Part shown: in pieces, positions 19,415 to 39,719 of the stretch | Layout of the letters: every line of letters begins with the position of its first letter | Numbering within the stretch: the first letter of the stretch is position 1 | DNA from: an uncultured Maribacter sp. | GTDB lineage: Bacteria; Bacteroidota; Bacteroidia; Flavobacteriales; Flavobacteriaceae | DNA length: 64,000 bases | Direction of reading: 5' to 3' | Assembly (NCBI GenBank): GCA_947504045.1 | Contig: CANNFY010000002.1 | Span: 248,001 to 312,000 of the forward strand | Made by a program: the position numbers and the translations under genes | Notes under the pieces: generated by a model | The model's database searches: none | The model's input: only the letters and a program-made list of their open reading frames with translations | What the model was told of the DNA's origin: nothing

Positions 19415-19447
19415 GTAATTTTTTTAAAGTCTTATTATAAAATACTC

Positions 19448-20507: not shown

Positions 20508-20521
20508 TTTTCTTTTTAATA

Positions 20522-20571
20522 CAACTGAGTTGCAAATATACTATTATTCACCATTATTGCAACTTAGTTGC
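20522..20571 (-). promoter_or_regulatory. Zur-type operators and promoter of the MerC-FolE-COG0523 operon
   Basis: Two palindromes, CAACTGAGTTG (20522-20532) and GCAACTTAGTTGC (20559-20571), lie 38 bp apart centre to centre. A partial third, CAACTTAGCTT, is at 20593-20603. Read on the minus strand, TTG (20560-20562) is followed after exactly 19 bases by TATATTTG (20533-20540), matching the Bacteroidota TTG-N19-TAnnTTTG promoter. One operator covers the -33 element and the other adjoins the start point, as expected for repression. The Fur-family gene is read in the opposite direction from the same gap. Confidence 0.75.
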
Positions 20572-20651
20572 TTTTATTAAATACGATTATTCCAACTTAG
20601 CTTTAAATTGTATTTTTGTAAGTACAACAAGCTTATATTACAATTGCACTA

Positions 20652-21613: not shown

Positions 21614-21642
21614 GGGTTGGGTAAAACAGTTTCATAAACGTA
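21614..21642 (+). promoter_or_regulatory. Predicted FecI-type sigma promoter, copy A
   Basis: GGGTTGGGTAA, 14 further bases, then ACGTA. It matches 38176-38204 (upstream of the haloperoxidase gene) in total length and at both ends, and differs by one base in spacing from 34672-34699 (between fecI and fecR). It ends 55 bp before the cytochrome peroxidase start. Assignment to the FecI factor at 34149 is inference. Confidence 0.6.
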
Positions 21643-21697
21643 GATATACAAAGAGAATAAAATTCTCTAGGTAGTTTAATTAAATTTATTCTGATTT

Positions 21698-22894
21698 ATG
21701 AAAAAATATTTTATCCCTTTTTGTTTACTAGCTTCTATTATTATGTCTTGTAGTAAAGATGAATATATAGATGTTCTTACAGGTGATGAACAAGAAATTG
21801 CAAACCAAGAAACTAATGATGCAGACGATGTAACTTCAGAAAATTTAGAACTTAATGATGCAAATTTAATCTTGCCCTCTACTCCTTTTAACTATGCCAA
21901 CATTGCTATTCCAAACTTTTTTTTAGATAATGATGTGCAACAAGAAGATAATACGCCAAACAACAACCCAATTACCGATAATGGGGCTACACTAGGTAGA
22001 GTTTTATTTTATGATACAAAACTATCTTTAAACAATACTATTTCTTGTGCATCTTGCCATATACAAGAAAACGGCTTTTCAGACCCAAATGCTTTAAGTA
22101 CTGGGTTTGATGGGGAATTAACCTCTAGAAACTCTATGGGATTAGCAAATGCTAGATTCTATGAAAATGGACGGTTTTTCTGGGATGAAAGAGCTGCAAC
22201 TTTAGAAACACAAACCTTAATTCCTATACAAGATTTGGTAGAAATGGGAATGACATTAGAGGACCTAGAAATTAAATTAGCGCAAGAGGATTATTATTCT
22301 ACATTATTTACAAATGCTTTTGGTAATGCAACTGTTACAAGCGAAAGAATAGCTTTAGCGCTATCGCAATTTATACGTTCTATGGTTTCTTTTGAATCTA
22401 AGTTTGATGAAGGTTTAGCTCAAACCAATATAAACAACGACTTTCCAAATTTTACTGCATCAGAAAATAGAGGTAAAGATCTTTTTATGAGTAATCAAAC
22501 GCGTTGTTTTGATTGTCATGCTACTAATGTATTTGTGGGTGATGCTGCCAGAAATAATGGCTTAGATGCTACAATAACAGATCCTGGAGTAGGTGGAATT
22601 ACTGGTAATAATAACGATTTAGGAGAATTTAAAGTTCCATCATTAAGAAATATAGCATTAACAGCACCATATATGCACGATGGTAGATTTGCTACTTTGG
22701 CAGAAGTAATTGAGCATTACGATAATGGAGTACAAAATAACCCTAATCTAGACAATCGTTTAACACAAGGTAATAATGTTCGTCGTTTAAATTTATCTAA
22801 TGCAGATAAGCAAGCTTTAGTAGATTTTTTAAATACATTAACCGATGAAGCTTTTATTACTGATGAAAAATATTCTGATCCTTTTTTAGAATAA
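21698..22894 (+). CDS. Di-haem cytochrome c peroxidase (CcpA/MauG family) lipoprotein
   Basis: The lipoprotein signal ends IIMSC (Cys18). Two CxxCH haem sites lie at Cys117-His121 (CASCH) and Cys270-His274 (CFDCH). Family blocks include LGRVLFYDTKLS, FSDPNALSTGFDG, ENGRFFWDERA, VPSLRNIALTAPYMHDGRFATLAEVIEHY and a terminal LVDFLNTLTDE. It would reduce hydrogen peroxide in the periplasm. The N-terminal 80 residues are acidic and low complexity. It shares its promoter-like motif with the FecI/FecR/TonB-receptor/haloperoxidase cluster 13 kb away, which argues for a common stimulus. Confidence 0.92.
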   Translation: MKKYFIPFCLLASIIMSCSKDEYIDVLTGDEQEIANQETNDADDVTSENLELNDANLILPSTPFNYANIAIPNFFLDNDVQQEDNTPNNNPITDNGATLGRVLFYDTKLSLNNTISCASCHIQENGFSDPNALSTGFDGELTSRNSMGLANARFYENGRFFWDERAATLETQTLIPIQDLVEMGMTLEDLEIKLAQEDYYSTLFTNAFGNATVTSERIALALSQFIRSMVSFESKFDEGLAQTNINNDFPNFTASENRGKDLFMSNQTRCFDCHATNVFVGDAARNNGLDATITDPGVGGITGNNNDLGEFKVPSLRNIALTAPYMHDGRFATLAEVIEHYDNGVQNNPNLDNRLTQGNNVRRLNLSNADKQALVDFLNTLTDEAFITDEKYSDPFLE

Positions 22895-22914
22895 AATAGA
22901 ATCAGAATATTTTT
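22866..22914 (+). terminator. Terminator overlapping the cytochrome peroxidase stop
   Basis: AAAAATATTCTGAT (22866-22879) and ATCAGAATATTTTT (22901-22914) are perfect 14-bp arms with a 21-nt loop; the stop codon lies in the loop. A T-rich run follows. The stem is AT rich but long. Confidence 0.6.
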
Positions 22915-23048
22915 ATAAGTTCTAATTTTTTTTAATGAAAAATCATACAATCAAAAAGTAGGAAATTACATACAAATAATACACTTTTACAACATTTATT
23001 TTAGTATTTTAATTTACTATTCTTAATTTAAAGAATATAATTTTTTAA

Positions 23049-25109
23049 ATGAAAAAAAATAGTAATTCAATTAAGTGTTTATACCTTTATTTTTTTCTGA
23101 CATTACTTTGGTGTGCTAATCTTACCGCACAATCAGAAATAAAAACATACACTAAAATAGAGGAATTACGAGCTAGCAAAAATTTTAATACAAAAGACAC
23201 AACTTATATTAATTTAATTTTAAAGTTAGCAAAGGAAAAAATTAGAACCAACCCAGACACTACATTACTATTATTAAAACAAGCACATAAATTATGTCTT
23301 ACAACTAAGTATAAGGCAGGAGAAAGCATTGCCTTATCTACATACGGTTATTATTATTTTGAAAAAGGCGAAGTAGAAAAAGCTTATGAGTATAATATGA
23401 ATGCTCTAAAAGTTGCACAAAATAATGACTTAAAAAAAGAAAAATTAATTGCCCTAAATAATATGGGCTTAGACTTTTGGTTGCAAGGAGAAGAAGCTAA
23501 ATCTTTAACCAAATTTATGGAGGCTCTATCTGTTGCCAAAGAGTTAAACGATATTGATAGAATAATGAGCCTTAATGTTAATATTGCTAATTTATATAGC
23601 GAAAATGGGGATTATGAAACCTCGTTACAATTTCTTGAAATTGCTAAAGATTTAAGTACCAAAAATAGCAATCATAAGGTACTAGCATATACGTTAGTAA
23701 ATATGGCTAATGAGTATATTAAATTAAAAAAATACGATGAGGCAAATGAAATGATTAATACTGCTATTGAGTATTTTAAAAAGGAAGAAATTATAGATTG
23801 GTTATCTCATGCCTATGAAGTAAAAGGTTCTATTGCTTTAGATCAAAAAAAATATAAACAAGCTTTAAATTGGTATGCTAAGGCCGAAAAATTATGTGAC
23901 GAAATAAATTTTAAATACGGATATACCATTTTATATTATCAAACTGCAAATGCACACCTTGGTCTTGGTAATATTAACAAGGCAGAAACTTATGCCTTAA
24001 AAGGGTTAGCTATTTCAACAGAGTTAAAAATTGCAGGCACCATAAAAGATTCTAATGCCATTTTAGCCGAGGTTTATAATAAAAAAGGAGAGTATAAATT
24101 GGCTTATGAATACCTAAACACCTATAAAGACTTACAAGAAAAAAGTTCTACCGAAAAATTTAAAAAAGGATTAGGAATTTTAAGAAGTAAAATAAAATTT
24201 GAAGAGCAGAAAGAAAAATTAATACAAGAACAAAATAAAGCTATTGCAAGGCAAAAAAACTATGTATACTTTTTTATTGCTGCTCTTTTAATAGTTAGTT
24301 TATTTTTACTTCTAATTTATAGAACAAATAACCTTCAAAAAAAATACACTCAAAAATTACTTGAAAAACAAGAAATTTTATTAAAACATGAAAAAGAATT
24401 AAGCGATTCTAATGCTACAAAAGACCGATTATTTTCTATTGTAGCACATGATCTTAAAGGACCAATAAATTCTTTTCATGGACTTATGAAAATGTCTATG
24501 GACGAGTCTATTAGCAAACAAGATTATGACATGCTAATACCTAAAGCCTTAAAAAATATTCAAAACATTTCTGAAATGTTAAACAACCTTTTAGTTTGGG
24601 CAAAAACACAAATGGAAGGAATTGTTGTTAAACAAGTAAACTTAGATGTTAATAGTATTGCTTCAAAAACTATCTTATTACTAGAACCAATTGCTAAAAA
24701 GAAAGACATTAAAATAATAAACCAAATACCCAAAAACACCATTAGTTACAGCGATAAAAACCACCTAAATATTATAATTAGAAATTTAATTAGCAACGCA
24801 ATAAAATTTACAAAACTAGGAGGCGAAATAAATGTTAGCATTGTAAAAAAAGAACATAATTTACAATTAGAAGTTAAGGATAATGGTATTGGAATGGAGG
24901 AAGAAACGCTAAACTTACTTTTTAAGAAAAAACATATAAAATCTACCTTTGGTACAAATAAAGAAAAAGGAACTGGACTAGGCCTTTATATTTGCAAAGA
25001 AATGGTAGAAAGTAACGGAGGTGAAATCAGGGTTTCTAGCGAAAAAAATAAAGGTACTTCTATTTATTTTACGCTGCCTTTAGAAGAAAAAAATAATACC
25101 AAAGTTTAA
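23049..25109 (+). CDS. TPR-containing membrane sensor histidine kinase
   Basis: Signal peptide (cleavage after NLTAQ), then about 350 residues of tetratricopeptide repeats in the periplasm (typical ALNNMGLDFWLQGEEAKSL units). One transmembrane helix lies at about 403-423 and a coiled coil follows. The HisKA box reads LFSIVAHDLKGPINSF, with the phospho-acceptor His467. The ATPase domain holds NLISNAIKFT (N box), DNGIGM (G1) and GTGLGLYICKEMVE (G2). It has no receiver domain. The PAS-LuxR gene that converges with it (14 bp apart) is a candidate partner, although that protein lacks a receiver. Confidence 0.92.
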   Translation: MKKNSNSIKCLYLYFFLTLLWCANLTAQSEIKTYTKIEELRASKNFNTKDTTYINLILKLAKEKIRTNPDTTLLLLKQAHKLCLTTKYKAGESIALSTYGYYYFEKGEVEKAYEYNMNALKVAQNNDLKKEKLIALNNMGLDFWLQGEEAKSLTKFMEALSVAKELNDIDRIMSLNVNIANLYSENGDYETSLQFLEIAKDLSTKNSNHKVLAYTLVNMANEYIKLKKYDEANEMINTAIEYFKKEEIIDWLSHAYEVKGSIALDQKKYKQALNWYAKAEKLCDEINFKYGYTILYYQTANAHLGLGNINKAETYALKGLAISTELKIAGTIKDSNAILAEVYNKKGEYKLAYEYLNTYKDLQEKSSTEKFKKGLGILRSKIKFEEQKEKLIQEQNKAIARQKNYVYFFIAALLIVSLFLLLIYRTNNLQKKYTQKLLEKQEILLKHEKELSDSNATKDRLFSIVAHDLKGPINSFHGLMKMSMDESISKQDYDMLIPKALKNIQNISEMLNNLLVWAKTQMEGIVVKQVNLDVNSIASKTILLLEPIAKKKDIKIINQIPKNTISYSDKNHLNIIIRNLISNAIKFTKLGGEINVSIVKKEHNLQLEVKDNGIGMEEETLNLLFKKKHIKSTFGTNKEKGTGLGLYICKEMVESNGGEIRVSSEKNKGTSIYFTLPLEEKNNTKV

Positions 25110-25123
25110 AAGTTTAGTATGCG

Positions 25124-25864
25124 TTAATGTAAAATTCCGTTTTTCTTACAAAAATTAATTAGGTCTTCTTGCGAATGCGTTTTTGCTTTTTTTAGAATAT
25201 TTTTTCTGTGTGTTGTTACGGTATGTGGGCTTAAAAATAATTTTTTTGCAATAGTTTCTGAAGTATTATTGCTTTCAATTAATTTTATAATTTCTTTTTC
25301 TCTTTTTGTAAAATAGTTTTCATAGGCTTTATAAACCGATTTTTTAAATGCTTCAGAATCTAACTCATTTGCATGTACATCCCACTCTACTCTATCTGGT
25401 GTATCTAAAAAAGTAATATCGGTTAAAAGAGAAAAATTACTAACCATTCTACCTTTTTCATCTCTTTCAAAAACAGAGGATTGTCTTAAAAGCTTACAAT
25501 AAGTACCATCTTTTTTTAAAAACCTAAAATAAATAAATAAATGGGGTTCTTTATCTACAATTGGGGTATTAATAACGTGTTCTACAACACCTTTGGTTAT
25601 ATCTTTAACTATTTGTCTATCTTCTGGATGCGTGTATGCTACCAAATCTTCCGGACTAAATTCATTTAATTTATAGCCAGTTAGTTTAGTTAAGTTTTTT
25701 TCATAAACCATTCCTTTATGTGCCCAATGTGCAACATAAATACATTGTTTTTTATTAATCGGAAATTTTTCAAGAACAGAATAATCGTTAGAATTATAAG
25801 TATACTTATCTACAACATTGTGTATTTTTTGTCTAAATAATTTCATTTCCTCTCTAGAGCCCAT
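25124..25864 (-). CDS. PAS domain - LuxR-type HTH regulator
   Basis: 246 residues. The PAS_3-like fold (about 45-160) has ENLTKLTGYKLNEFSPEDLVAYTHPEDR and FRFLKKDGTYCKLLRQSSV. A C-terminal LuxR/GerE HTH (about 180-240) has FTKREKEIIKLIESNNTSETIAKKLFLSPHTVTTHRKNILKK. No receiver domain and no membrane segment, so it probably senses a cytoplasmic ligand or redox signal. The start follows the alpha/beta hydrolase stop codon almost immediately, so they form an operon. Met7 is an alternative start. Confidence 0.88.
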   Translation of the reverse strand: MGSREEMKLFRQKIHNVVDKYTYNSNDYSVLEKFPINKKQCIYVAHWAHKGMVYEKNLTKLTGYKLNEFSPEDLVAYTHPEDRQIVKDITKGVVEHVINTPIVDKEPHLFIYFRFLKKDGTYCKLLRQSSVFERDEKGRMVSNFSLLTDITFLDTPDRVEWDVHANELDSEAFKKSVYKAYENYFTKREKEIIKLIESNNTSETIAKKLFLSPHTVTTHRKNILKKAKTHSQEDLINFCKKNGILH

Positions 25865-25865
25865 A

Positions 25866-26666
25866 CTACAAAATATTGTTTAAGTACTGGTGTAATAATT
25901 GATTAAATACTACTGGATTTTCTATATGTGGACTATGACTACTATTTGATATTTCAATAATTTCATTCTTCCAAATAGTGCTGATATTTAGCTGATTAAG
26001 GTAATCTTTATTAACCAATACATCTTTTTCGCCATGAAAAATTGCTACTGGTACCTGTAACGCATTTAAAATTGCATATTCATCAGAAAACTCTCCATTT
26101 CCGATAGAGGTTGCTATTGCTGTTCTAAATTTTGAGTCTGTTTGTTTTATATTTTTTTCCAATATTTTTTTCCACTCTATACTTTCTTTTACCATTAAAT
26201 CTGCCATTTCTGAAATTTCAAAATCATTTAATTCTTCCTGAAATAAATACGACATTTTATCATTAGGTAAAAAAGCTTCTTCTAAGTTAATTGGCTTTTT
26301 TATAGGTGGAGTTCCAAAAACTAAACATCCTATACAATTATTTAAGTATGGTAAAGTTTCAATAGCTAAATGTCCCCCTAAAGAATGTCCTACTAAAACT
26401 ACACTTTCAAACTTCTGACAATTATCTGCCAAAATTTTAACTAAATTAGTAACGCTATAATCTTTAAGCTTAATAGATTGTCCATGACCAGGAAAATCAT
26501 AAGCTACCATTGAAAAAGCTTGTAATTCACTTGCTTCTAATTGTTTTTTCCAAACAATATTTGATGTAGAATTGCCGTGCAAAAAAATAATTGTAGTATT
26601 TTTTTTAGGAGTTTTAGTTGTAGGTTTTTTTTCTACCTTATATAGAGGAACAATTGGTGCAGGCAT
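25866..26666 (-). CDS. Alpha/beta-hydrolase
   Basis: Canonical fold: oxyanion FLHGNSTS (about 29-36), YDFPGHGQS, nucleophile elbow GHSLGG, FHGEKDVLVN with the likely catalytic Asp, and SSHSPHIENP with the catalytic His. 266 residues, cytoplasmic, no signal peptide. Substrate is unknown; carboxylesterase or a lactone/ester hydrolase are equally possible. It is co-transcribed with the PAS-LuxR regulator one base downstream, so its product or substrate may be the regulator's ligand (inference). Confidence 0.88.
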   Translation of the reverse strand: MPAPIVPLYKVEKKPTTKTPKKNTTIIFLHGNSTSNIVWKKQLEASELQAFSMVAYDFPGHGQSIKLKDYSVTNLVKILADNCQKFESVVLVGHSLGGHLAIETLPYLNNCIGCLVFGTPPIKKPINLEEAFLPNDKMSYLFQEELNDFEISEMADLMVKESIEWKKILEKNIKQTDSKFRTAIATSIGNGEFSDEYAILNALQVPVAIFHGEKDVLVNKDYLNQLNISTIWKNEIIEISNSSHSPHIENPVVFNQLLHQYLNNIL

Positions 26667-26765
26667 ATGTAATATTAAGTAAACACTATATGAATATCTT
26701 AAAAAATATCAAATTTACCAAATTACTATGAAACACCTTTTTATCTTTAATTTAAATTTAAAAAC

Positions 26766-27245
26766 ATGAAAAATATTTGTTTTTTATTCTTTAGCATAAC
26801 TACTATTTTAAATGCTTGTAGCACTAATAATGCTATAAAAATAAATGAAGAAGATACAAATACTAATATGGCTAGTGTAGTTAGTGTTACTGTTTCTGGA
26901 ACAGAAAACAACTACACTTTTAATGTAGGTATTTCTAGTCCAGATACAGGGTGTAACCAATATGCAGATTGGTGGGAAGTTGTTACCGAAGACGGTACAC
27001 TTTTGTATCGTAGAGTTTTGTTACATAGCCACGTAAACGAACAACCTTTTGTAAGGTCTGGAGGCTCCATAAATGTTACAAGTAATACTACCCTAATTAT
27101 AAGAGCGCATATGAATACTTCTGGTTATGGAGTAAATGCATACGTAGGCTCTGTATCTAATGGTTTTAAAGCAACTACATTAGAAAATAACTTTGCTTTA
27201 GAACTTGCTATGCAAGAACCTTTGCCAAGTGGTTGCAATTTTTAA
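26766..27245 (+). CDS. Small unrecognised lipoprotein
   Basis: 159 residues; the signal ends ILNAC (Cys18). The rest is beta-rich with a single compact domain (VSVTVSGTENNYTFNVGISSPDTGC to SVSNGF), containing GCNQYADWWEVV and a His-containing LLHSHVNEQPF. Cys at about 67 and 157 could form a disulphide. I do not recognise the family; the pattern is that of a small immunoglobulin-like extracellular domain. It is divergent from the hydrolase and converges with the amidase (8 bp apart). Confidence 0.75.
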   Translation: MKNICFLFFSITTILNACSTNNAIKINEEDTNTNMASVVSVTVSGTENNYTFNVGISSPDTGCNQYADWWEVVTEDGTLLYRRVLLHSHVNEQPFVRSGGSINVTSNTTLIIRAHMNTSGYGVNAYVGSVSNGFKATTLENNFALELAMQEPLPSGCNF

Positions 27246-27253
27246 AACAACTA

Positions 27254-28789: not shown

Positions 28790-28885
28790 AAATTATAGAA
28801 TAAGTGCAGTTTAAATTATATAAATGTAAAGTACTAGCAACTATTTTTTTAAAGCAAAAAAAATAAATGTTTTTTTAACTTAAAT

Positions 28886-28923
28886 TTAATAGTATTAAAC
28901 ACTAAGTTAATAGTATTACTATT
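28886..28923. promoter_or_regulatory. Double palindrome upstream of tetR, likely auto-operator
   Basis: TTAATAGTATTAA (28886-28898) is a 6-1-6 palindrome. TTAATAGTATTA recurs at 28907-28918, exactly 21 bp away (two helical turns), and runs into AATAGTATTACTATT (28909-28923), another perfect palindrome. A TAnnTTTG-like box (TATTTTTG, 28923-28930) overlaps the end. Placement just ahead of the tetR start suits autorepression. Confidence 0.6.
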
Positions 28924-28948
28924 ATTTTTGCCAATTATTTCTTTTTAT

Positions 28949-29629
28949 ATGGAAAAATTACTTTTAAATATTAAAATAGAGATTCCTAAAGATATTTATC
29001 TTAAAGATCCTGAATCTTCATCATTAGGAAAAAAAATAATTGAAAAGAGTATTATACTAATAGAAGATATTGGTTTTGAATCTTTTACATTTAAAAAATT
29101 AGGCAAAATTATTGGCTCTAATGAGAGTTCTATTTATAGGTATTTTGAAAGCAAACATAAGCTTTTAGTTTACTTAACCTCTTGGTATTGGAGTTGGATA
29201 GAATACCAATTAGTTATAGAAACAAATAGTATAACTAATACTGAAGAAAAGTTAAAAAAAGCAATACAAATAGTTACAAGAACAACAAAACAAGATAGTA
29301 AGTTTAGTCATATTAACGAGGTACTACTAAATCAAATTGTAATTAACGAAAACTCTAAATCTTATTTAACAAAAGATGTTGATAACGAAAATAAAGAAGG
29401 CTATTTTATGTCTTACAAACACGTTGTACAACGTTTTTCTAATATAATACAAGATTATAATAGTTTATACTCGTATAGTTTAAGTTTGGCTAGTACAATA
29501 ATTGAAGGAGCTTTACACCAACACTTTATAAAAACACATTTTACGTCTATTACAAACTGTAATAAGCATATAACTCCAACAGATTTTTTTACAGATTTAG
29601 CATTAAAAACAATAGAAAAAAATGAATAA
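28949..29629 (+). CDS. TetR-family regulator
   Basis: ATG 28949 is preferred over an upstream TTG (28928), which lies within the promoter-like box. 226 residues: the N-terminal HTH (about 25-70) has KKIIEKSIILIEDIGFESFTFKKLGKIIGSNESSIYRYFESKHKLL, typical TetR. The C-terminal half is helical with no recognisable ligand motif. Its stop overlaps the ABC exporter start by 8 bp, so it heads the tetR-ABC-HlyD-TolC operon and probably represses it until the exported compound binds. Confidence 0.88.
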   Translation: MEKLLLNIKIEIPKDIYLKDPESSSLGKKIIEKSIILIEDIGFESFTFKKLGKIIGSNESSIYRYFESKHKLLVYLTSWYWSWIEYQLVIETNSITNTEEKLKKAIQIVTRTTKQDSKFSHINEVLLNQIVINENSKSYLTKDVDNENKEGYFMSYKHVVQRFSNIIQDYNSLYSYSLSLASTIIEGALHQHFIKTHFTSITNCNKHITPTDFFTDLALKTIEKNE

Positions 29630-31289
29630 TAGCGAAACTATCTTAACCCCTTGGCAACGTTTTGTAGGCTTAATAAAATTAGAGCGAAAAGATATTTTTC
29701 AGGTTGCATATTATGCAATTTTTGAAGGTATTGTAGCACTATCTTTACCTCTTGGTATACAGGCCATTATAAACCTTATTCAGGGAGCTCAAATATCTAC
29801 ATCATGGATTGTTTTAGTAGTTTTGGTAACTGCAGGTGTGGCATTTTCAGGAGTCTTAAAATTAATGCAAATGCGAATTATAGAAACTATACAGCAACGT
29901 ATTTTTACTAGAGCCTCTTTAGCATTAAGTTATCGTTTTCCTAAAATAAAAATGAGCGAGTTACGTAATTATTACCTTCCGGAACTTGCAAATCGTTTTT
30001 TTGATACCTTAACTATTCAAAAAGGATTGTCCAAAATTTTAATTGATGTTCCTTCTGCATTCCTACAAATTATATTTGCTTTAATTCTTTTATCATTTTA
30101 CCACCCGTTTTTTATAGTTTTTGGCTTATTACTTTTATTATTAATTTATGTAGTATTTAAATATACTGCAAAACGAGGTTTAGATACTAGTTTAAGTGAA
30201 TCTAAAATAAAATACCAAGTAGCGTATTGGCTGCAAGAAATATCGCGCTCTGTAATTAGTTTTAAGCTATCTGGTAAAACTAATTTAGCCATGTCTAAGA
30301 ATGATAATTTACTTACGCACTATTTAAAATCAAGAGAAAGTCATTTCAAAATTTTATTACTACAATTTATACAAATGATTGGTTTTAAGGTTCTTGTAAC
30401 TGCAGGACTTTTACTAATTGGAGGGTTTTTAGTTTTAGAACAACGTATGAATATTGGACAATTTGTTGCCGCAGAAATTATTATTCTTTTGATTATTAAT
30501 TCTGTTGAAAAATTAATTTTAGGATTAGAATCTTTTTATGATGTTTTAACCTCTATTGAAAAATTAGGTCAAATTATAGATAAACCTATGGAGGCTCAAA
30601 ATGGTGAAATTATAGACACTACAAAAGAACTAACAATAGAGTTCCAAGAAGTATCTTATGTTGTAAAAGAAAGAAACAAACCAATTTTAAATAATATTTC
30701 TTTTACTATTAACCCAAAAGATAGAATATTAGTTGAAGGAGAAAGTGGTTCCGGAAAATCTAGTTTATTTCAATTAATTGCTGGTGTAATATTACCAACA
30801 TCCGGATATATTTATATAAACAACCTATCTATAGAAAGTTTATATATTAATAAATATCGTGCCTTATTAGGATTATCACTTTCTGAAGAAACACCTTTTG
30901 AGGGTACTATAAGAGAAAATGTAACTTTTGGCGATAAAAGCATTACAGACGATGCTATATATAAAACTTTTGAAGATTTAGATTTAACTACTTTTTTAAA
31001 GCAACAACCAAAAGGTCTAAATACCATATTAAAGCCAGAAGGTAAACAAATTGCTTACACGACAGCTAAAAAAATAGTTTTAGCAAGAGCTATAGTAAAG
31101 CAACCAAAATTATTAATATTAGAAGACCCTCTAGATCAATTTCATAAAACGGAGGCTAAAAAGCTTATCGAATTTCTAACAAAAGAATCCCACTCTTGGA
31201 GTTTAATTGTTGTTAGTAATAATGAAACTTGGAAACAAAAATGTAACAAACATATTATCCTTAAAAACGGAAATATTATAAAAAATTAA
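29622..31289 (+). CDS. ABC exporter half-transporter with a degenerate ATPase domain
   Basis: Residues about 1-320 are a six-helix exporter membrane domain. The nucleotide-binding domain (about 340-555) has an intact Walker A, GESGSGKSS (373-381). The other motifs deviate: the Q-loop Gln is not seen (LGLSLSEETPFEG), the LSGGQ signature is replaced by IAYTTA (477-482), Walker B reads LLILEDP with Glu501-Asp502 in reversed order, and the switch His is Asn533 (VVSNNE). I believe similar LEDP-type domains occur in other Bacteroidota exporters paired with HlyD proteins. It has no peptidase domain. It works with the HlyD (6 bp downstream) and TolC proteins; substrate is unknown. Confidence 0.88.
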   Translation: MNNSETILTPWQRFVGLIKLERKDIFQVAYYAIFEGIVALSLPLGIQAIINLIQGAQISTSWIVLVVLVTAGVAFSGVLKLMQMRIIETIQQRIFTRASLALSYRFPKIKMSELRNYYLPELANRFFDTLTIQKGLSKILIDVPSAFLQIIFALILLSFYHPFFIVFGLLLLLLIYVVFKYTAKRGLDTSLSESKIKYQVAYWLQEISRSVISFKLSGKTNLAMSKNDNLLTHYLKSRESHFKILLLQFIQMIGFKVLVTAGLLLIGGFLVLEQRMNIGQFVAAEIIILLIINSVEKLILGLESFYDVLTSIEKLGQIIDKPMEAQNGEIIDTTKELTIEFQEVSYVVKERNKPILNNISFTINPKDRILVEGESGSGKSSLFQLIAGVILPTSGYIYINNLSIESLYINKYRALLGLSLSEETPFEGTIRENVTFGDKSITDDAIYKTFEDLDLTTFLKQQPKGLNTILKPEGKQIAYTTAKKIVLARAIVKQPKLLILEDPLDQFHKTEAKKLIEFLTKESHSWSLIVVSNNETWKQKCNKHIILKNGNIIKN

Positions 31290-31295
31290 TACCCT

Positions 31296-32645
31296 ATGTT
31301 AAACATATCACACAATAACGTTACAGAAAACATAGATTTAAAAAGCTTTAAATCTGGTAAAGATATTTTTACAAAAGAGTATTATAAGCGTTTTAAAACT
31401 TTCTTATTAGTTTTTGCAATACTATTCATCATAATTTTATTTTTACCATGGACACAAAATATTACAAGTAATGGTAATGTAACTACACTAAAGCCTAACC
31501 AACGTCCGCAAAGTTTACAATCGCAAATTCCTGGTCGTATTGAAGAGTGGTTTGTACAAGAAGGAGATTTAGTTAAAAAAGGAGATACCATACTACGTAT
31601 ATCTGAAGTTAAAAGTGAGTATTTTGATGAAAGACTTGCTGAGCGTACAGACAACCAGCTTAATGCAAAAACCTCTTCTGTAGAAGCGTATAAAGGAAAA
31701 GTTTTAGCTTTAAATAATCAAATATCATCTTTAAAACAAGAGCTAAATTTAAAATTAAAACAAGCAAAAAATAAAGTAATACAAACGGCTTTAAAAATTA
31801 AAACTGATAGTATAGATTTAGAAGCAGCTAAAATAAAAGCAAACATTGCCAATACACAATTTAATAGAACCGTATTACTACAAGAAGAAGGGTTAAAAGC
31901 GGTTAAAGATGTGGAAGAAAAAAGAGCTAAATTACAAGAGGCAAATGCCAAATTAATATCGCAAGAAAATAAATATTTAACTTCAAAAAATGAGGCAATA
32001 AATGCCCAACTTTCTATATCTACGCTTAATGCAACATATGGCGATAAACTAGCAAAAGCACAAAGTAATTTATATACCGCACAATCTAATGGTTACGATA
32101 CAGAGGTAGAAGTTTCTAAATTAGAAACTAATTTAGCTAACTACCAAAAACGTACTAGTTTATTATTTGTTACTGCTCCGCAAGATGGGTATATAAATAA
32201 AGCCATAAAATCTGGTGTTGGAGAAACCTTTAAAGAAGGAGATCAATTAGTAAGTATAATGCCTGCTAATTATGATTTAGCGGTAGAAATGTATGTGCGC
32301 CCAATAGACCTTCCTTTAATACATGTAAATGAAAAAGTAAGAGTACAATTTGATGGATGGCCTGCAATTGTTTTTAGTGGCTGGCCAAATGTTTCTTATG
32401 GTACATATGGCGCAAAAGTTATTGCTATTGAAAACTATAGCAGTACTAATGGAATGTTTCGTGTTTTACTAGTACCCGATGAAAGTGAAGCCGAGTGGCC
32501 AAAAGCTATACGTGTAGGTTCTGGTGCAAAAACAATTGCATTACTAGAAGACGTTTCTATTTGGTTTGAGTTATGGAGACAATTAAATAGCTTCCCTCCT
32601 AACTACTACCAACCTAATGCAGAAAAGTCGGATTATAAAAATTAA
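31296..32645 (+). CDS. HlyD-family membrane fusion protein of a type I-like exporter
   Basis: A cytoplasmic N-terminus, one transmembrane helix (about 31-51, FKTFLLVFAILFIIILFLPW), then a biotinyl-lipoyl-like half-motif (IPGRIEEWFVQEGDLVKKGDTIL). A long coiled coil (about 110-280) and the matching second half (VTAPQDGYINKAIKSGVGETFKEGDQLVSI) follow, then a beta-barrel domain. It bridges the ABC protein to TolC. Its end overlaps the likely TolC start region; the true ATG of the latter is 32656. Confidence 0.9.
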   Translation: MLNISHNNVTENIDLKSFKSGKDIFTKEYYKRFKTFLLVFAILFIIILFLPWTQNITSNGNVTTLKPNQRPQSLQSQIPGRIEEWFVQEGDLVKKGDTILRISEVKSEYFDERLAERTDNQLNAKTSSVEAYKGKVLALNNQISSLKQELNLKLKQAKNKVIQTALKIKTDSIDLEAAKIKANIANTQFNRTVLLQEEGLKAVKDVEEKRAKLQEANAKLISQENKYLTSKNEAINAQLSISTLNATYGDKLAKAQSNLYTAQSNGYDTEVEVSKLETNLANYQKRTSLLFVTAPQDGYINKAIKSGVGETFKEGDQLVSIMPANYDLAVEMYVRPIDLPLIHVNEKVRVQFDGWPAIVFSGWPNVSYGTYGAKVIAIENYSSTNGMFRVLLVPDESEAEWPKAIRVGSGAKTIALLEDVSIWFELWRQLNSFPPNYYQPNAEKSDYKN

Positions 32646-32655
32646 AAAAAGCATA

Positions 32656-34044
32656 ATGCAAAAAATACTTATTTTACTATTTATTTTAAACGCTTCTTTT
32701 CTTTTTTCTCAAGAAAACGACTCTATTTTGTCTTTAGAAGAATATTTAGGGTATGTAAAAAAATACCATCCTATTGTAAAACAAGCTAGACTTATAACTA
32801 CAAACAGCGAAGCCAAATTATTAAAATCTAGAGGAGCTTTTGACCCTAAAATACAAGTAGACTACGATAGAAAAAAATTTAAAGAAACAGAATATTATGA
32901 CATACTAAATACATCTTTTAAAATACCAACATGGTATGGTGTAGAGTTTAAGGCTAATTATGAAAATAATAGCGGTGTATTTTTAAATCCAGAATATAAC
33001 GTTCCGGAAGATGGTTTGTATAGTGCAGGAATATCTTTATCGCTTGCTAAAGGTTTGCTTACCAACAAAAGAATGGCAACATTAAAACAAGCAAAACTAT
33101 ATACAACACAGGCCCAAGCAAAACAAAAATTAGTGATTAATGATATTCTTTATGATGCTATTATTATATACTTTAATTGGTTAAAAAATTATAAAGCAAA
33201 ACTAGTTTATCAAGATTTTTTAGAAAATGCTAATACTAGATTACAAAATGTAAAAAGTAGTTTTAATGCAGGAGATAAACCCGCAGTAGATACTTTAGAA
33301 GCTAGTATAAACTACAAAACCAGAATGCTAGATCTAGAAAAATCTAATATTGGGTATATAAAAGCTACTTTAGAACTTTCTAATTATTTATGGTTAGAAA
33401 ATAACTTACCTATAGAGCTAAAAACAAACATAAAACCAGACATATACACCTTTGGTAGTATTGATAATGTTTTAAATAATTCTATATTAAATAGTAAAGA
33501 TGTTAACTTAGAAAATCATCCTAAAATAGTAGAATTAAAAGCTAAACAAGAAATCTTAAAGGTAGACAAAAGACTAAAAACCAATAATTTATTACCAAAA
33601 ATAGATTTAGAATATAATTTTTTAACACCAGATTACGACCAACTAAACTCGCTAAACACTGCCAACTATAAAAGCGGATTAAATATTAGTTTTCCTCTAT
33701 TTCTACGAAAAGAAAGAGGAGAATTAAAATTGGCGAAAATTAAATTACAAAACACAAAATTTGATATTTCTGCAACAGAAGTAAATCTAAAAAATAAAAT
33801 TGAAAGCAAACTAAGAGAAATAGAATCGTACGATATACAAAATACTATATTAGAAAATTTAGTGCTAGATTATAAAAAATTAGTGCAAACCGAAGAACGT
33901 AAATTTATTCTAGGAGAAGGCTCTATATTTTTAGTAAATTATAGAGAAGTAAAACTAATAGAAAGTCAATTAAAAGCAATAGATACAGAGTACCAATTAT
34001 TTAGCAGTAAAACCGGTTTAGTACAAGTACTTGGGGACTTATAA
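32656..34044 (+). CDS. TolC-family outer-membrane efflux protein
   Basis: I start at ATG 32656, which gives MQKILILLFILNASFLFSQ, a clean signal peptide; the earlier frame start at 32617 lies in the HlyD gene. 462 residues with two OEP repeats of long alternating helices (KQAKLYTTQAQAKQKL and KLAKIKLQNTKFDISATEV) and strands rich in aromatic residues. It completes a tripartite export system with the two upstream genes. No lipobox is seen. Confidence 0.9.
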   Translation: MQKILILLFILNASFLFSQENDSILSLEEYLGYVKKYHPIVKQARLITTNSEAKLLKSRGAFDPKIQVDYDRKKFKETEYYDILNTSFKIPTWYGVEFKANYENNSGVFLNPEYNVPEDGLYSAGISLSLAKGLLTNKRMATLKQAKLYTTQAQAKQKLVINDILYDAIIIYFNWLKNYKAKLVYQDFLENANTRLQNVKSSFNAGDKPAVDTLEASINYKTRMLDLEKSNIGYIKATLELSNYLWLENNLPIELKTNIKPDIYTFGSIDNVLNNSILNSKDVNLENHPKIVELKAKQEILKVDKRLKTNNLLPKIDLEYNFLTPDYDQLNSLNTANYKSGLNISFPLFLRKERGELKLAKIKLQNTKFDISATEVNLKNKIESKLREIESYDIQNTILENLVLDYKKLVQTEERKFILGEGSIFLVNYREVKLIESQLKAIDTEYQLFSSKTGLVQVLGDL

Positions 34045-34148
34045 TTAGATATACTACACCTAAATAAACCACTAAATTTTATTTTTTAAAAACTGTTTTA
34101 CAACAACTAATTATCCTTTCTTATCTTTAGGGTTTATAATAGATAGTA

Positions 34149-34670
34149 ATGAGCAAACAACCTTCGGTCTGTGATGAACAGGTGTATAATCAAATTTACA
34201 AAGCACATGCAGAAAGCTTAAGAAACTATCTATATTATAAATTTGGAGATATGAAACAAGCAGAAGATGTTGTTCATGATTCCTTTATTAAACTCTGGTC
34301 TAAATGCAGCTCTATTATTTATGAAACTGCTGCAAATTTTTTATATAAAATTTCTAGTAATTTAATGATAGATACGTTACGATCTAAAAAAGTTGCTCTA
34401 AAATTTGAAAAAGGACTTACCATAACCCCAGATAAAGAAGACCCCTATTTTCATTTACGATCTAAAGAGTTTAGGTTGCAAATAGAGAAAACTATTTCTG
34501 AATTACCCGAAAAACAAAGAGAAGCCTTTTTATTAAATAGAATAGATAAACTTACTTATAAAGAAATTGCGGTAAGGTTAGGTGTTAGTACTACTGCTGT
34601 AGAAAAACGTATAGCAAAAGCATTACTAAAATTAAAATCAATTACAGAATTAAAAAAATATACTATTTAA
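34149..34670 (+). CDS. FecI-type ECF sigma factor
   Basis: 173 residues. Region 2 (about 10-85) reads VYNQIYKAHAESLRNYLYYKF and QAEDVVHDSFIKLWSK. Region 4 (about 115-170) reads ISELPEKQREAFLLNRIDKLTYKEIAVRLGVSTTAVEKRIAKAL. It is followed by FecR and an STN-containing TonB receptor, the standard cell-surface signalling trio. It is the best candidate to recognise the GGGTTGGGTAA...ACGTA motif seen three times in the window. Confidence 0.93.
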   Translation: MSKQPSVCDEQVYNQIYKAHAESLRNYLYYKFGDMKQAEDVVHDSFIKLWSKCSSIIYETAANFLYKISSNLMIDTLRSKKVALKFEKGLTITPDKEDPYFHLRSKEFRLQIEKTISELPEKQREAFLLNRIDKLTYKEIAVRLGVSTTAVEKRIAKALLKLKSITELKKYTI

Positions 34671-34671
34671 T

Positions 34672-34699
34672 GGGTTGGGTAAATATTTTTTATAACGTA
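34672..34699 (+). promoter_or_regulatory. Predicted FecI-type sigma promoter, copy C
   Basis: GGGTTGGGTAA, 12 or 13 bases, then ACGTA; one base shorter than copies A (21614) and B (38176). It starts just after the fecI stop and ends 11 bp before the fecR GTG, so a transcript from it would have almost no leader. This could let the sigma factor drive fecR and the receptor gene. Confidence 0.55.
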
Positions 34700-34710
34700 A
34701 TATATGTACT

Positions 34711-35622
34711 GTGAGTAAAAAACTAGAACATAATAACCTTATAGCTAAATGGTTAGACAATAGTTTAACCCAAAGCGAAAAAGAAGCATTAGAATCTTCA
34801 GGAGAATTAGATGCTTTAAAAACTGTTATAGAAGATATAGATACCTGGAAAGTAAAACCATTTAATACCGAAGAAGGTTTAGCTAAACTTAAACAAGACA
34901 AGCAAAAAATTCTAATCCTAGAAAAAAACAAAAAGCGTAACTTTTTACGCATGGTTGCAAGCATAGCTTTATTAATATCTTTTGGAGCTTTATGGTTTTT
35001 TATGAATACTGGTAAAGTAACCGAAACAACTAAAATTGCAGAAAAAAAGTCTATAGAACTTCCTAATGGATCTTTAGTAGAATTAGATGCTGCTTCTGCA
35101 GTTACCTTTTATAAAAAAGATTGGGAGGATCAAAGAAATATATCTTTAACCGGACAAGCCTTTTTTAATGTTACAAAAGGGGCTCCTTTTGTAGTAAAAA
35201 CACCAACAGCAAAAGTTACGGTATTAGGAACTAAATTTAATATAAAAGCAGAAAAAGAAGACTTTTCTGTTTACTGTTACGAAGGTTCTATTTTAGTTTC
35301 TTATCAAGATAAAAAACAAACATTAAAGCAAGGACAAAGTGTTATATTAAAAAATAATACCTTATTAAAAAAAGAACATCAAATTACATCGCCAGATTGG
35401 ATGTTAGGTTATTCTAAATACGAAAGCACTTTACTTATAAATGTAATACAAGATTTAAAACGCTATTATAATTTAGACCTATCTCTTCCTAAAAAATATG
35501 AAAACCAAAAATTTACCGGAATTATACATCATAATAATAAAAAAGTTGCTTTAGAAGAACTTTTTACTACTATGGAGATAAATTATACAATTAAAGAAAG
35601 CGGAAATATAATTATCTATTAA
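34711..35622 (+). CDS. FecR-family anti-sigma/regulatory protein
   Basis: GTG start. The cytoplasmic N-terminal part (1-79) would bind the sigma factor, and one transmembrane helix follows (about 80-98). The periplasmic FecR domain includes IELPNGSLVELDAASAVTFYK, ISLTGQAFFNVTKGAPFVVKT and TVLGTKFNIKA. The C-terminal DUF4974-type domain has VIQDLKRYYNLDLSLP and KVALEELFTTMEINYTI. It relays the state of the TonB receptor encoded 18 bp downstream. Confidence 0.92.
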   Translation: MSKKLEHNNLIAKWLDNSLTQSEKEALESSGELDALKTVIEDIDTWKVKPFNTEEGLAKLKQDKQKILILEKNKKRNFLRMVASIALLISFGALWFFMNTGKVTETTKIAEKKSIELPNGSLVELDAASAVTFYKKDWEDQRNISLTGQAFFNVTKGAPFVVKTPTAKVTVLGTKFNIKAEKEDFSVYCYEGSILVSYQDKKQTLKQGQSVILKNNTLLKKEHQITSPDWMLGYSKYESTLLINVIQDLKRYYNLDLSLPKKYENQKFTGIIHHNNKKVALEELFTTMEINYTIKESGNIIIY

Positions 35623-35640
35623 TTACTATTTTAGCAGTAT

Positions 35641-38112
35641 ATGGTTAACAATATTCTAAAAATTAGTATAACTTTTATTTGGTGTTTTTTTTGTGGTTCA
35701 TTTCTTCTTTTTTCTCAGGAACAACAATTAAAACTAATAGATATTTTACCAGAATTAGAAAAAAAATATGGTGTTAGTTTCTCTTACAATACTATTTTTT
35801 TAGAAAACATTACACTTAATACTATTGAAGATTGTAACTCTTTAGACTCTTGTTTACAAACAATTTATAAAGCAGTACCCATTACTTTTAAAAAAAGTGG
35901 AGAAAATAACTATTTAATTGTTCCTGTTAGAAAAAGTGTTTCTTTTAAAGTAGTTGACCCTTTATCTGAAGACCGTATATCTTCTTTAAACGTACAAGTA
36001 AATAAAGACCAACCAACAACCATATACCCAGAAAATGAGGTGTATAAACTGCAAAATATTTCTCCTTTAGACTCTATACATATAGAGGTTCCTTTTTATA
36101 AAAGTTTGCATTATAAAGCTCAGGAGCTTATGGATCAATCTCAAACTTTATTTTTAGAAAGTAAAACTATTTTTTTAAATGAAGTTCAAGTTACCCAGTA
36201 CCTTACAAAAGGTATAGATACCAGAATTAGCGACCATAGTATACAAGTAGATATGAAGTTTTTAAAACTATTAGTTGGAGAAACAGATAATGATATTTTA
36301 AATGCTATAAAAACTATTCCAGGAATGCATACACCAAACGGTAAACCTGGTAATTTAAGTTTAAGAGGTAGTACCTTTGATCAAACATTAATACAAATAG
36401 ATGATATACCTATTTACCATACAGGACATTTTTATGGTACACTATCCCCATATAACCCATCTATAATTAACCATATAGAAGTACAACGTAATACTCTACC
36501 AGCAAATTGGGGAGGAAAAGTTGGGGGCTTAATTAACATGACTACTAGTAATGATGTGCCAGAATCTAAAGACTTTTTAGTTTTAGCAAATACAATTTTT
36601 GCTGGTGTTACAGCAAAAATGCCCATTATAAAAGATAAAGTTGGTTTTAGTTTAGCAGGAAGATCAAGTTACCCAGGGCTTAACTCTCCAAAACTTACTA
36701 CATTATCTAATTTAAATTTTCAAGGAAGTTTATTAGAATCTGTTGCAGATAATGTTAACAGTAAAAATTTAGAAACAGGATTTTACGATATCAATTCTAA
36801 GTTGGTTTATGATATAAACGAAAATAATAAAGCCAGCATAAGTTATATTAATATTCAAAATTACCTATCCGCTCAATTAGAAGATTCGGAACAAGACAAT
36901 AAAGATTTTAGAGATTTAAATTTGGATAACTGGGGAGTAACCTTAAAATGGGATGGTAAATTTTCAGATAAACTTAGTGCGCATACACGTATTAGCAAAT
37001 CATCATTAATAATATCTAATACTAGCGAAGGCTTTTCTGCATCAGAAAGATCTAGCTTTGAAAAATACATTAATACTATTAACGATACTCGTTTTATAAG
37101 TGAAATTACATACCAAAAAAATGCATCTACAAGTTTTGAAACAGGTTATACGTTTACAGATTATAGCATAACTTTTGATGAAAGAATTGATCAAAACGCT
37201 ACAACAAATAGAAATGATCAAGATGCTACCGTTCATAGCTCTTTTTTATCAGCAACAAAAAAATGGGACTCAAAAATAACATCTGTATTTGGTATACATG
37301 CAGACTATTATAATCCTAAAAAAAGAGTTTATTTAGATCCAAGATTATCTTTAAGCATACCTGCAGGCAAAAACTTTATTATAAAAACTTCTGTTGGACG
37401 ATCACATCAATTTATTCAAAAAAAATTAAGAGACGATTTTGATGATTTTAATAATGATAGTCAATTTTGGTATTTACCAGACAAAACCACTAGTGTATTA
37501 GAAAGTTACCAAACTATGTTAGGAGGTTTATATACTAAATCTAACTGGTTAGTAGATCTAGAATTATATTACAGAAAAACAAATAATGTAACATTACAAA
37601 CTAGTACAGATACACAAAGCTCAGGATCACTAAAAAGTTTAGGATTAGATTTTTTTGTAAAAAAAAGATGGGGAAAATTAGAAACATTAGTTAGTTACTC
37701 GTTAAGTAATGTAAATACAAATTTTGACAAAGTTCAAGAAAGTATATTTTTTGATCAAAGGCATATTTTAAATATAACCGGACTTTTAAATTTAGACCAT
37801 TGGAACTTTGTTTGTACATGGGCATATTCTTCAGGTATGCCAGTAGTTATTCCTGATTATGGCTTAGGGCAAGAAAACCAACCTTTAGAATATACCTCGC
37901 GTTTTCCTAGCCAACACCAATTAGATGCAACTATTGCTTATTCCTTTTTTAATACTTCAAATAAATTAAAAAGCACTATAGGTTTATCTTTAGTAAATAT
38001 TTATGACCAAGATAATATTGTAAATATTTTTCAAAACGCTCCATCAAACAATTCTCTCTATAGAAAAGGAATTGGCTTTTCTCCTAATTTACAACTAAGT
38101 ATACAGTTTTAA
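35641..38112 (+). CDS. TonB-dependent outer-membrane receptor with STN signalling domain
   Basis: Signal peptide (to LLFSQ), then an STN domain (about 30-100: LKLIDILPELEKKYGVSFSY, SLDSCLQTIYKAVPITF). The plug domain is at about 190-310 (NAIKTIPGMHTPNGKPGNLSLRGSTFDQTLIQIDDIPIY, NWGGKVGGLINMTT) and the barrel ends FSPNLQLSIQF. At 823 residues it is FecA-like and has no SusD partner, so it imports a small ligand such as a metal chelate rather than glycan. The ligand is not readable from sequence. The STN domain links it to the FecR/FecI pair. Confidence 0.9.
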   Translation: MVNNILKISITFIWCFFCGSFLLFSQEQQLKLIDILPELEKKYGVSFSYNTIFLENITLNTIEDCNSLDSCLQTIYKAVPITFKKSGENNYLIVPVRKSVSFKVVDPLSEDRISSLNVQVNKDQPTTIYPENEVYKLQNISPLDSIHIEVPFYKSLHYKAQELMDQSQTLFLESKTIFLNEVQVTQYLTKGIDTRISDHSIQVDMKFLKLLVGETDNDILNAIKTIPGMHTPNGKPGNLSLRGSTFDQTLIQIDDIPIYHTGHFYGTLSPYNPSIINHIEVQRNTLPANWGGKVGGLINMTTSNDVPESKDFLVLANTIFAGVTAKMPIIKDKVGFSLAGRSSYPGLNSPKLTTLSNLNFQGSLLESVADNVNSKNLETGFYDINSKLVYDINENNKASISYINIQNYLSAQLEDSEQDNKDFRDLNLDNWGVTLKWDGKFSDKLSAHTRISKSSLIISNTSEGFSASERSSFEKYINTINDTRFISEITYQKNASTSFETGYTFTDYSITFDERIDQNATTNRNDQDATVHSSFLSATKKWDSKITSVFGIHADYYNPKKRVYLDPRLSLSIPAGKNFIIKTSVGRSHQFIQKKLRDDFDDFNNDSQFWYLPDKTTSVLESYQTMLGGLYTKSNWLVDLELYYRKTNNVTLQTSTDTQSSGSLKSLGLDFFVKKRWGKLETLVSYSLSNVNTNFDKVQESIFFDQRHILNITGLLNLDHWNFVCTWAYSSGMPVVIPDYGLGQENQPLEYTSRFPSQHQLDATIAYSFFNTSNKLKSTIGLSLVNIYDQDNIVNIFQNAPSNNSLYRKGIGFSPNLQLSIQF

Positions 38113-38175
38113 ATAACAAAATTAGACTTCTTATTATTTACTAAACCTCTCCCCTTTTATTTTTTTTTAATAAGA

Positions 38176-38204
38176 GGGTTGGGTAATACAACCTCATAAA
38201 CGTA
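38176..38204 (+). promoter_or_regulatory. Predicted FecI-type sigma promoter, copy B
   Basis: GGGTTGGGTAA, 13 bases, then ACGTA, with TCATAA directly before ACGTA exactly as in copy A (21614-21642). It ends 63 bp before the haloperoxidase-like gene and lies after the receptor stop, so that gene probably has its own sigma-dependent start. Confidence 0.6.
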
Positions 38205-38267
38205 TTAGAAGAAAGGTTATAAAAAATTAACCTTGAATTAAACATTAACCTAATATAAATTTCAATT

Positions 38268-39719
38268 ATGAGGAAAATAGATTTTAAATGGTCCATTGCT
38301 ATTTTAGTAGCAATATTTTTATTTCAATCTTGTGCAACGGATGAATTAGATGAAGTTATTGATATTGATCAAGTAGATACTTCAGAGGAAGAAGAAACAG
38401 ATAATAATGGCAATACCAATAGATTTGGAGAACAAATGAATATGACCGATTCTACTAGCGAATTAGTTGTAGAATGGAGCGAATTATTTTTAGAATTAGA
38501 TAGGTATGCAACTGGTATGCGCCCTAACGCTACAGCTAGAGCCATTGCTTATATAAATTTAGCAGCATATGAAACTGCTGTTGCAGATATGCCCAATTAC
38601 ACTTCTAATACAAGTAGGTTAAACGGTTTAAATATAAATGCAAACCAAAGAGAAGATGATGTTAATGTTGCAATTGCATTAAATGCTTGCTATGCTAGTG
38701 TTCTAGATCATTTTTTATATAACGTTCCTCGTAATATTAATTCTGGAATTAATAGTTTAGAAAACGAAAAAGAAGAAGAATTAGAAGATGGCGTATCTAA
38801 CGACGTAATAGACGATTCTAAAGATTGGGGAAGATATGTTGCAAACCGTATTATTGCATATAGCCAAACAGATGATGAAGCAGAAGAACAAATTGAAGAT
38901 CCACAACCAGATTCTTACGAGCCACCAGTTGGCGAAGGTTTTTGGACCTATAGTGCAGATGCTGAACGCGCTTGGTTTCCTTACTGGGAGTCTGTAAGAA
39001 CATTTGTAATCTCTGCAGATGAAACCAGCTCTGTACCTCCTACAGATGACTATAGCGAAAACACTAATAGTGGCTATTACGAACAAATGCTCGAAGTGTA
39101 TGAAACAAATAATACTGCTAGAGAAGAAAGAAATGAAGATTTATGGATTGCAGAATTTTGGTCTGATGATGTAGAAGGACTTATGATGAGCCCACCAGGT
39201 AGACAAATTTCTATAGCAGCACAACTTATAGAGCATTATGATCTTAGTTTAGAAGAATCTTTAGCTATGCTATTAAAAGTAGGTTTTGCAATTAATGATG
39301 CTGCGGTATCTTCTTGGGATGATAAATACAATTATATGGTTATGCGTCCTAGTGTATATATACAAGAATTTATAGACCCAGATTACCAAACTAATTTGTT
39401 TACATTTATTTCTTGGCCAAACCCTTCTTTTCCTGGCTACCCATCTGGGCATTCTACTTTTGCTTCAGCAGCTGGAGGGGTTTTTATAGACCTTTTTGGA
39501 GATGACACTAATTTTACAGACAGATCACACGAAGGACGTACAGACTTTTTAGGCACACCAAGACAATTTAGTACATTTTCAGAAATGGCAGAAGAAAATG
39601 CATTTTCTCGTATACCTTTAGGTGTACACATAAGAATGGATTGTACCGAAGGGTTAAGACTTGGATATGAAATATCTGATGCAGTAAATAATTTTGACTT
39701 AACCTCTGGTAACAATTAA
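38268..39719 (+). CDS. Vanadium-dependent haloperoxidase-like (PAP2-fold) lipoprotein
   Basis: The lipoprotein signal ends FLFQSC (Cys22), followed by a very acidic linker (to about 60). The vanadate or phosphate pocket is complete: Lys353 and Arg360 (DKYNYMVMRP, spacing 7), Ser393-Gly394-His395 in YPSGHS, and Arg448 with His454 (SRIPLGVH, spacing 6). These spacings match vanadium haloperoxidases more than lipid phosphatases, and no membrane helices are present. A peroxide-using halide oxidase or an acid phosphatase is possible. It follows the FecI/FecR/receptor cluster under a shared promoter motif. Confidence 0.85.
   Translation: MRKIDFKWSIAILVAIFLFQSCATDELDEVIDIDQVDTSEEEETDNNGNTNRFGEQMNMTDSTSELVVEWSELFLELDRYATGMRPNATARAIAYINLAAYETAVADMPNYTSNTSRLNGLNINANQREDDVNVAIALNACYASVLDHFLYNVPRNINSGINSLENEKEEELEDGVSNDVIDDSKDWGRYVANRIIAYSQTDDEAEEQIEDPQPDSYEPPVGEGFWTYSADAERAWFPYWESVRTFVISADETSSVPPTDDYSENTNSGYYEQMLEVYETNNTAREERNEDLWIAEFWSDDVEGLMMSPPGRQISIAAQLIEHYDLSLEESLAMLLKVGFAINDAAVSSWDDKYNYMVMRPSVYIQEFIDPDYQTNLFTFISWPNPSFPGYPSGHSTFASAAGGVFIDLFGDDTNFTDRSHEGRTDFLGTPRQFSTFSEMAEENAFSRIPLGVHIRMDCTEGLRLGYEISDAVNNFDLTSGNN

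Follow-up and report, generated by a model that had tools for sequence, protein, structure and literature searches.

In the ferric citrate system of E. coli, FecI/FecR/FecA, an extracytoplasmic function (ECF) sigma factor is combined with a membrane regulator and a signalling TonB receptor, and a passage in one account of it describes the sigma factor as driving the promoter of the receptor (PMC9249621). The nearest precedent for the locus described here is MbnI/MbnR/MbnT with MbnH and MbnP, known from methanobactin loci and from isolated pairs, in which a FecI/FecR/TonB receptor set stands beside a MauG-like di-haem enzyme. In methanotrophs, MbnP and MbnH are reported as pairs close to MbnT-like receptors that are accompanied by homologues of MbnI and MbnR (PMC3621798). 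We analysed a window of 64,000 nucleotides from an uncultured Maribacter sp. (contig CANNFY010000002.1, positions 248,001 to 312,000) that shares features with both systems. It has a sigma factor with regions 2 and 4, an adjoining FecR-domain regulator and a TonB receptor with an N-terminal signalling domain, together with genes for a vanadium-haloperoxidase-like lipoprotein (VHPO) and a MauG/MbnH-like di-haem enzyme. A short two-part motif precedes fecR, the VHPO gene and the di-haem gene.

Compared with FecI/FecR/FecA, the supposed promoter here stands not only before the fecR-receptor pair but also before two extra enzyme genes, whereas in comparison with the Mbn systems VHPO takes the place of MbnP at the cluster. 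From sequence comparison we regard this as surface signalling of the FecI type in which the pair of enzymes is unusual, and with high probability as a real regulon. No description of the module or the motif was found in the literature among the matches listed, which were mainly open-access and covered titles and the starts of abstracts; the letters of the motif were not searched.

The motif in the window and its genome

The initial annotation had pointed to three near-identical sites, each ahead of a gene start, and the sites proved exact: GGGTTGGGTAA-N12/13-ACGTA occurs three times in the window, always on the forward strand and with zero mismatches (Table 1). No match arose in 100 shuffles of the window. 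In the window's own genome (G000; 3,455,399 bases in 42 contigs, 99.7% complete), with the gap allowed to vary from 10 to 18 bases, there were exactly three matches, which are the three window sites ahead of the named genes, while the reversed control gave none. This rules out a motif that is frequent across the genome. When the gap was fixed at 13 and up to two mismatches were allowed, 23 places matched (two of them true sites) and the reversed control gave 21, so that this is background level. The sole place with one mismatch, C3:178135, was rejected as a fourth regulon member, having opposite-strand genes and no listed start codon downstream. At fecR, the supposed -10 element is separated from the start by 11 bases (34699-34711; 8 in Maribacter), and the transcript would be almost leaderless.

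Table 1. Sites and genes of the putative regulon; distance counts the bases between ACGTA and the start codon.
Feature	Coordinates	Strand	Distance and start	Details
Site 5' of di-haem gene	21614-21642	+	55, ATG 21698
Di-haem enzyme, MauG/MbnH-like lipoprotein, 398 aa	21698..22894	+		Pfam CCP_MauG; CxxCH at 117 and 270
fecI, ECF sigma factor, 173 aa	34149..34670	+		Pfam Sigma70_r2 and r4_2
Site 5' of fecR, promoter-like	34672-34699	+	11, GTG 34711	GGGTTGGGTAA, 12 bases, ACGTA
fecR, anti-sigma/sensor protein	34711..35622	+	GTG start	Pfam FecR (67.4 bits) and FecR_C
TonB-dependent receptor, signalling-type N-terminal domain, 823 aa	35641..38112	+		Pfam FecR_C (residues 31-89), Plug
Site 5' of VHPO gene	38176-38204	+	63, ATG 38268
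VHPO, vanadium-haloperoxidase-like lipoprotein, 483 aa	38268..39719	+		Pfam PAP2; best solved match 4cit, E 5.2e-34

FecI scored 115.3 bits against NCBIfam TIGR02985, under the cut-off of 126.4. The Pfam STN model did not match the receptor at E 0.001, and the receptor sequence matched nothing among solved structures up to E 0.01; its AlphaFold model (mean pLDDT 51.5) adds little.

Conservation of the gene set and the site

Orthologues of all five genes adjoin in seven further loci, making eight with the window. Three loci from Maribacter, the nearest named relatives by this cluster (L037, L038 and L039), have the order fecI-fecR-receptor-VHPO-di-haem, and four further genomes (L041, L085, L086 and L134) the order di-haem-fecI-fecR-receptor-VHPO. 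BLAST identities to the window proteins are 69-72% (FecI), 44-56% (FecR), 45-58% (receptor), 50-56% (VHPO) and 69-77% (di-haem enzyme). Because L037 and L038 hardly differ, no more than seven of the eight loci are independent, and L038 was omitted from the trees and from alignment A3. The di-haem gene had initially been seen as a distant member, but among the eight loci the 11-kb gap between it and fecI occurs in the window genome only, and the gene adjoins the cluster in all seven others. By this comparison its distance is a local rearrangement.

Directly upstream of fecI (28928-34044) the window has, as assigned by eye, a TetR-like regulator, an ABC exporter and an HlyD-like protein, followed by a TolC-like protein (Pfam OEP). 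In the same-genus genome G007 the relatives of these four genes are followed directly by a DUF4494 gene. The TolC and DUF4494 genes on either side of the fecI-VHPO block in the window are thus next to each other in G007, about 250-320 bases apart, so the block is absent there.

We scored the 400 bases before each start against GGGTTGGGTAA-N12/13-ACGTA and counted as a site anything with at most two mismatches in 16; the null of random stretches was drawn from loci that contain true sites. Over the eight loci a site is present at 18 gene starts, and the form conserved across them is GGTTGGGTAA-N12/13-WCGTA. The VHPO gene has it in eight of eight loci, the di-haem gene in five of five where VHPO does not immediately precede it, and fecR in five of eight; fecI itself has none in the seven cases examined (5-7 mismatches). 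Control genes outside the cluster (nine VHPO, five di-haem and two kinase genes) also gave 5-7 mismatches, like most random stretches. In six cluster-bearing relatives, eight of the nine distinct places of the shorter pattern GGTTGGGTAA-N9-17-CGTA lie in the cluster, the ninth being inside a reading frame, and the reversed control gave none. Outside the cluster genomes, the longer pattern by our count had 15 single matches among the 397 family genomes, against 19 reversed-control matches in 18 genomes, which is background; G365 has the cluster yet misses the longer pattern, its sites beginning AGG. The sites accompany the fecI cluster and are absent before the nine VHPO and five di-haem relatives examined that lie outside it, which supports the regulon.

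The VHPO and receptor trees do not agree. Motif-bearing VHPOs fall in three places among stand-alone VHPOs, and a single clade was rejected by the approximately unbiased (AU) test (p 2e-8). A grouping of the window and Maribacter VHPOs, named for testing after the first tree had been seen, was also rejected (p 1e-5), yet their receptors group at 99/99. The di-haem tree was poorly resolved. If the stand-alone lineages had lost the regulatory part repeatedly, that would not by itself account for the disagreement with the receptor tree, but hidden paralogy could. The simplest account seems to be that VHPO was exchanged within the module, with the promoter kept or regained. Such an apparent swap of VHPO under one and the same promoter supports functional coupling.

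Kind of site and its link to FecI

The two half-sites stand at a fixed 12-13 bases from each other and the second contains CGTA, which gives them the look of an ECF promoter, a class for which -10 elements of the CGT type are known. For the group we take the name to be ECF240, a name not found in the literature among the matches listed. The strongest reason for assigning the motif to FecI comes from more distant relatives. The search for these gave 28 non-orthologous loci and 14 further matches without a locus; 27 of the loci have both fecI and fecR, with FecI proteins 37-57% identical. A GTAGGGTAA-like element lies within 110 bases before fecR in 19 of the 27. The opposite strand shows it in none of the 27, and of 4000 random stretches 94 have it. 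By eye, TGTC or TGTT follows after about 13 bases in 15 of the 19. With such an element also present in related FecI loci, there is nothing exotic about the motif itself. It looks like one dialect of a class of FecI promoters in the family, and the site is most likely a FecI-class promoter. The second halves before fecR (L009-L036) vary between subgroups, with TGTC, TGTT and others.

Another DNA-binding regulator might instead act at the motif, or recombination might have spread it, and proximity would then be the only link to FecI. The three window sites are conserved better than would be expected of promoters, which fits such an origin. However, no other regulator is common to the four loci whose gene lists were read (the window, L038, L041 and L134), and the spacers differ among the three window sites, so they are not recent copies. 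Taken with the ECF-like spacing and the element before fecR in related loci, this makes the alternative very improbable. We therefore hold with high confidence that fecR-receptor, VHPO and the di-haem enzyme form a small regulon, marked by the motif, under a FecI-type promoter. The initial proposal that the motif is the FecI target and defines a regulon is borne out to this extent by genome comparison; FecI binding, the direction of signalling and the signal and ligand themselves are inferred.

Several observations count against a FecI regulon of this kind. When the di-haem gene stands directly behind VHPO, in three Maribacter loci, it has no site of its own (none of three) and would have to be read through from VHPO, over about 150 bases. 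The three loci that lack the fecR site, L041, L085 and L134, belong to one genus and could be explained only by supposed read-through from the di-haem promoter, with about 80 bases to fecI; if this is true, FecI would be autoregulated in that genus. The VHPO site of L086 is 293 bases from the start. With the search expression applied, no element was seen before fecR in eight of the 27 related loci, although two of these (L016 and L031) have a close variant by eye, and one of the 19 matches (L011) looks like chance. The five-gene set is also rare and patchy, being present in four of the 397 family genomes sampled, counting that of the window, and the motif was found in none of seven same-genus genomes. 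Both enzymes occur apart from the cluster: VHPO relatives without a fecI cluster nearby were found in nine genomes (49-67% identical) and di-haem relatives without the cluster in ten, of which five were examined, the status of both being judged from loci of 13-19 kb rather than from whole-genome searches for fecI.

The two enzymes and their possible function

The di-haem gene had been labelled as a cytochrome c peroxidase, a name that the sequence does not favour. The protein's best family match is TIGR04039, the MbnH family, and among solved structures its top match is 6e1c (E 8.7e-47), a listed di-heme enzyme that we take to be MbnH. In the alignments Tyr341 falls opposite a tyrosine of 6e1c and opposite MauG residue 294 (counted by hand), and it is invariant in the five aligned sequences, window included; the same position is methionine in 1iqc, 3o5c and 2c1u, the three classical peroxidases aligned. 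In MauG, Tyr294 is a haem ligand, while methionine is the ligand there in classical bacterial cytochrome c peroxidases. The protein thus has the two CxxCH motifs and the tyrosine of the wider MauG type, and lacks the classical methionine. This favours oxidation of a substrate or a protein over the scavenging of peroxide, and simple removal of peroxide is not our first guess.

VHPO has the signature residues K353-x6-RP, PSGH at 392-395 and SRxxxGxHxxxD from 447, and the signature is complete in the window and the six orthologues examined (L038 left out). Haloperoxidases bind vanadate through a set of Lys, Arg, Ser-Gly-His, Arg and an axial His. The signature is shared with the vanadium haloperoxidase 4cit, presumably the Zobellia galactanivorans iodoperoxidase, although 4cit has TSGH in the alignment where the window protein has PSGH. 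Oxidation of halide with hydrogen peroxide and vanadate is predicted, though VHPO may instead be a phosphatase of the same PAP2 superfamily. The AlphaFold model (mean pLDDT 30.1) was useless.

Both proteins start with a lipobox (the cysteine being assigned by eye in the VHPO of L134 and the di-haem protein of L037). In the di-haem protein the cysteine is followed by SKDEY, which fits C-X-K-(D/E)2-X, and in VHPO by ATDEL, acidic but without the lysine. A passage in work on Capnocytophaga gives C-X-K-(D/E)2-X as the signal exporting lipoproteins to the surface (PMC5080379). Surface exposure of both enzymes is therefore likely, given the lipobox and the likeness to this export signal.

We propose that the receptor would bind an extracellular ligand and its N-terminal domain would signal to FecR, which would release or activate FecI. 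With RNA polymerase, FecI would then start transcription at the three sites, before fecR-receptor, the VHPO gene and the di-haem gene, the first of these amplifying the sensor. For what follows, our confidence in the regulon is a separate matter: the peroxide-defence and metal-uptake alternatives compete over function, and the likelihoods we attach to them are not meant to add up to certainty.

The suggestion of two surface enzymes that consume hydrogen peroxide stands in so far as both belong to peroxide-using families and are likely to be at the surface; the tyrosine of the di-haem enzyme calls simple scavenging into question, and a peroxide, halide or metal signal is a conjecture. Were the system a peroxide or halide defence, the receptor would report algal or microbial oxidants and the two enzymes would remove hydrogen peroxide at the surface. 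It is established that both families use hydrogen peroxide, and the lipobox with acidic residues resembling the published export signal would place the enzymes suitably. In the portion of a Zobellia study that bears on this, vIPO3 is upregulated on Ascophyllum relative to alginate (PMC9296495). Yet the distal-haem tyrosine in place of methionine points to MauG/MbnH-type chemistry and the nine genomes mentioned above keep a related VHPO with no cluster nearby. Receptors of the FecA kind, moreover, generally respond to ligands and not to peroxide. Such a defence is in our view rather unlikely.

Uptake of a metal or metallophore in the manner of MbnI/MbnR/MbnT with MbnH and MbnP is a possibility of somewhat more weight, though still doubtful. 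Here the di-haem enzyme would create a metal site on a surface partner by oxidising one of its residues, a tryptophan or the like, with VHPO in the place of MbnP. The MbnH-like tyrosine, the best matches to TIGR04039 and 6e1c and the reported methanotroph pairs near MbnT-like receptors (PMC3621798, in part) all fit. Nevertheless the di-haem protein scores 264.2 bits against TIGR04039, under its cut-off of 362.85, and the VHPO signature residues are intact, so VHPO need not be a mere substrate. There is also no MbnP-like gene at the cluster: across the window's own genome TIGR04052 (MbnP) gave one match, under its cut-off and on another contig (C1, about 284 kb), motif-free and beside another di-haem gene.

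It seems to us close to an even chance that the two surface lipoproteins use hydrogen peroxide to oxidise something linked to the receptor's ligand, the metal version included. They would act as MauG/MbnH-type modifiers of a partner protein, with VHPO as the source of hypohalite or as that partner. We rank this oxidation of ligand or partner above peroxide defence. More speculative is a surface oxidation module in which the receptor, through FecI, induces both enzymes to act together at the surface. Hypohalite or high-valent haem chemistry would then make, unmask or modify the receptor's cargo, as a halogen- or metal-linked counterpart of MbnH/MbnP.

Several neighbours and relatives of the di-haem gene were considered as well. 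The pair at C1 (about 282-284 kb; L149:2361-4285) is a separate MbnP-like/MbnH-like pair whose di-haem protein is 41% identical to that of the window over 311 residues. With 6-7 mismatches, this pair and the other two fecR units of G000 were rejected as regulon members. Behind the window di-haem gene lies a TPR-histidine kinase gene (23049-25109), and a 53% identical kinase is encoded downstream of the cluster in G441 (L134:12656-14704). The kinase gene at 23049 was rejected as a member (best score seven mismatches), neither kinase gene being preceded by the motif. On the other side, 18509-21032 is a metal-type neighbourhood with a Fur-family regulator at 20652 (Pfam FUR) and, by eye, MerC-like (20103), GTP cyclohydrolase-like (19448) and COG0523-type GTPase (18509) genes. 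In G007, too, relatives of all four are grouped.

The regulon, as we read it, joins haloperoxidases and MauG-like di-haem enzymes, usually studied apart, in one compact, externally signalled unit. With the likely promoter named, the inducing ligand could be sought with a simple reporter. For the family as a whole there may be a general code of FecI promoters, in which a common GTAGGGTAA-like half is combined with a variable second half.

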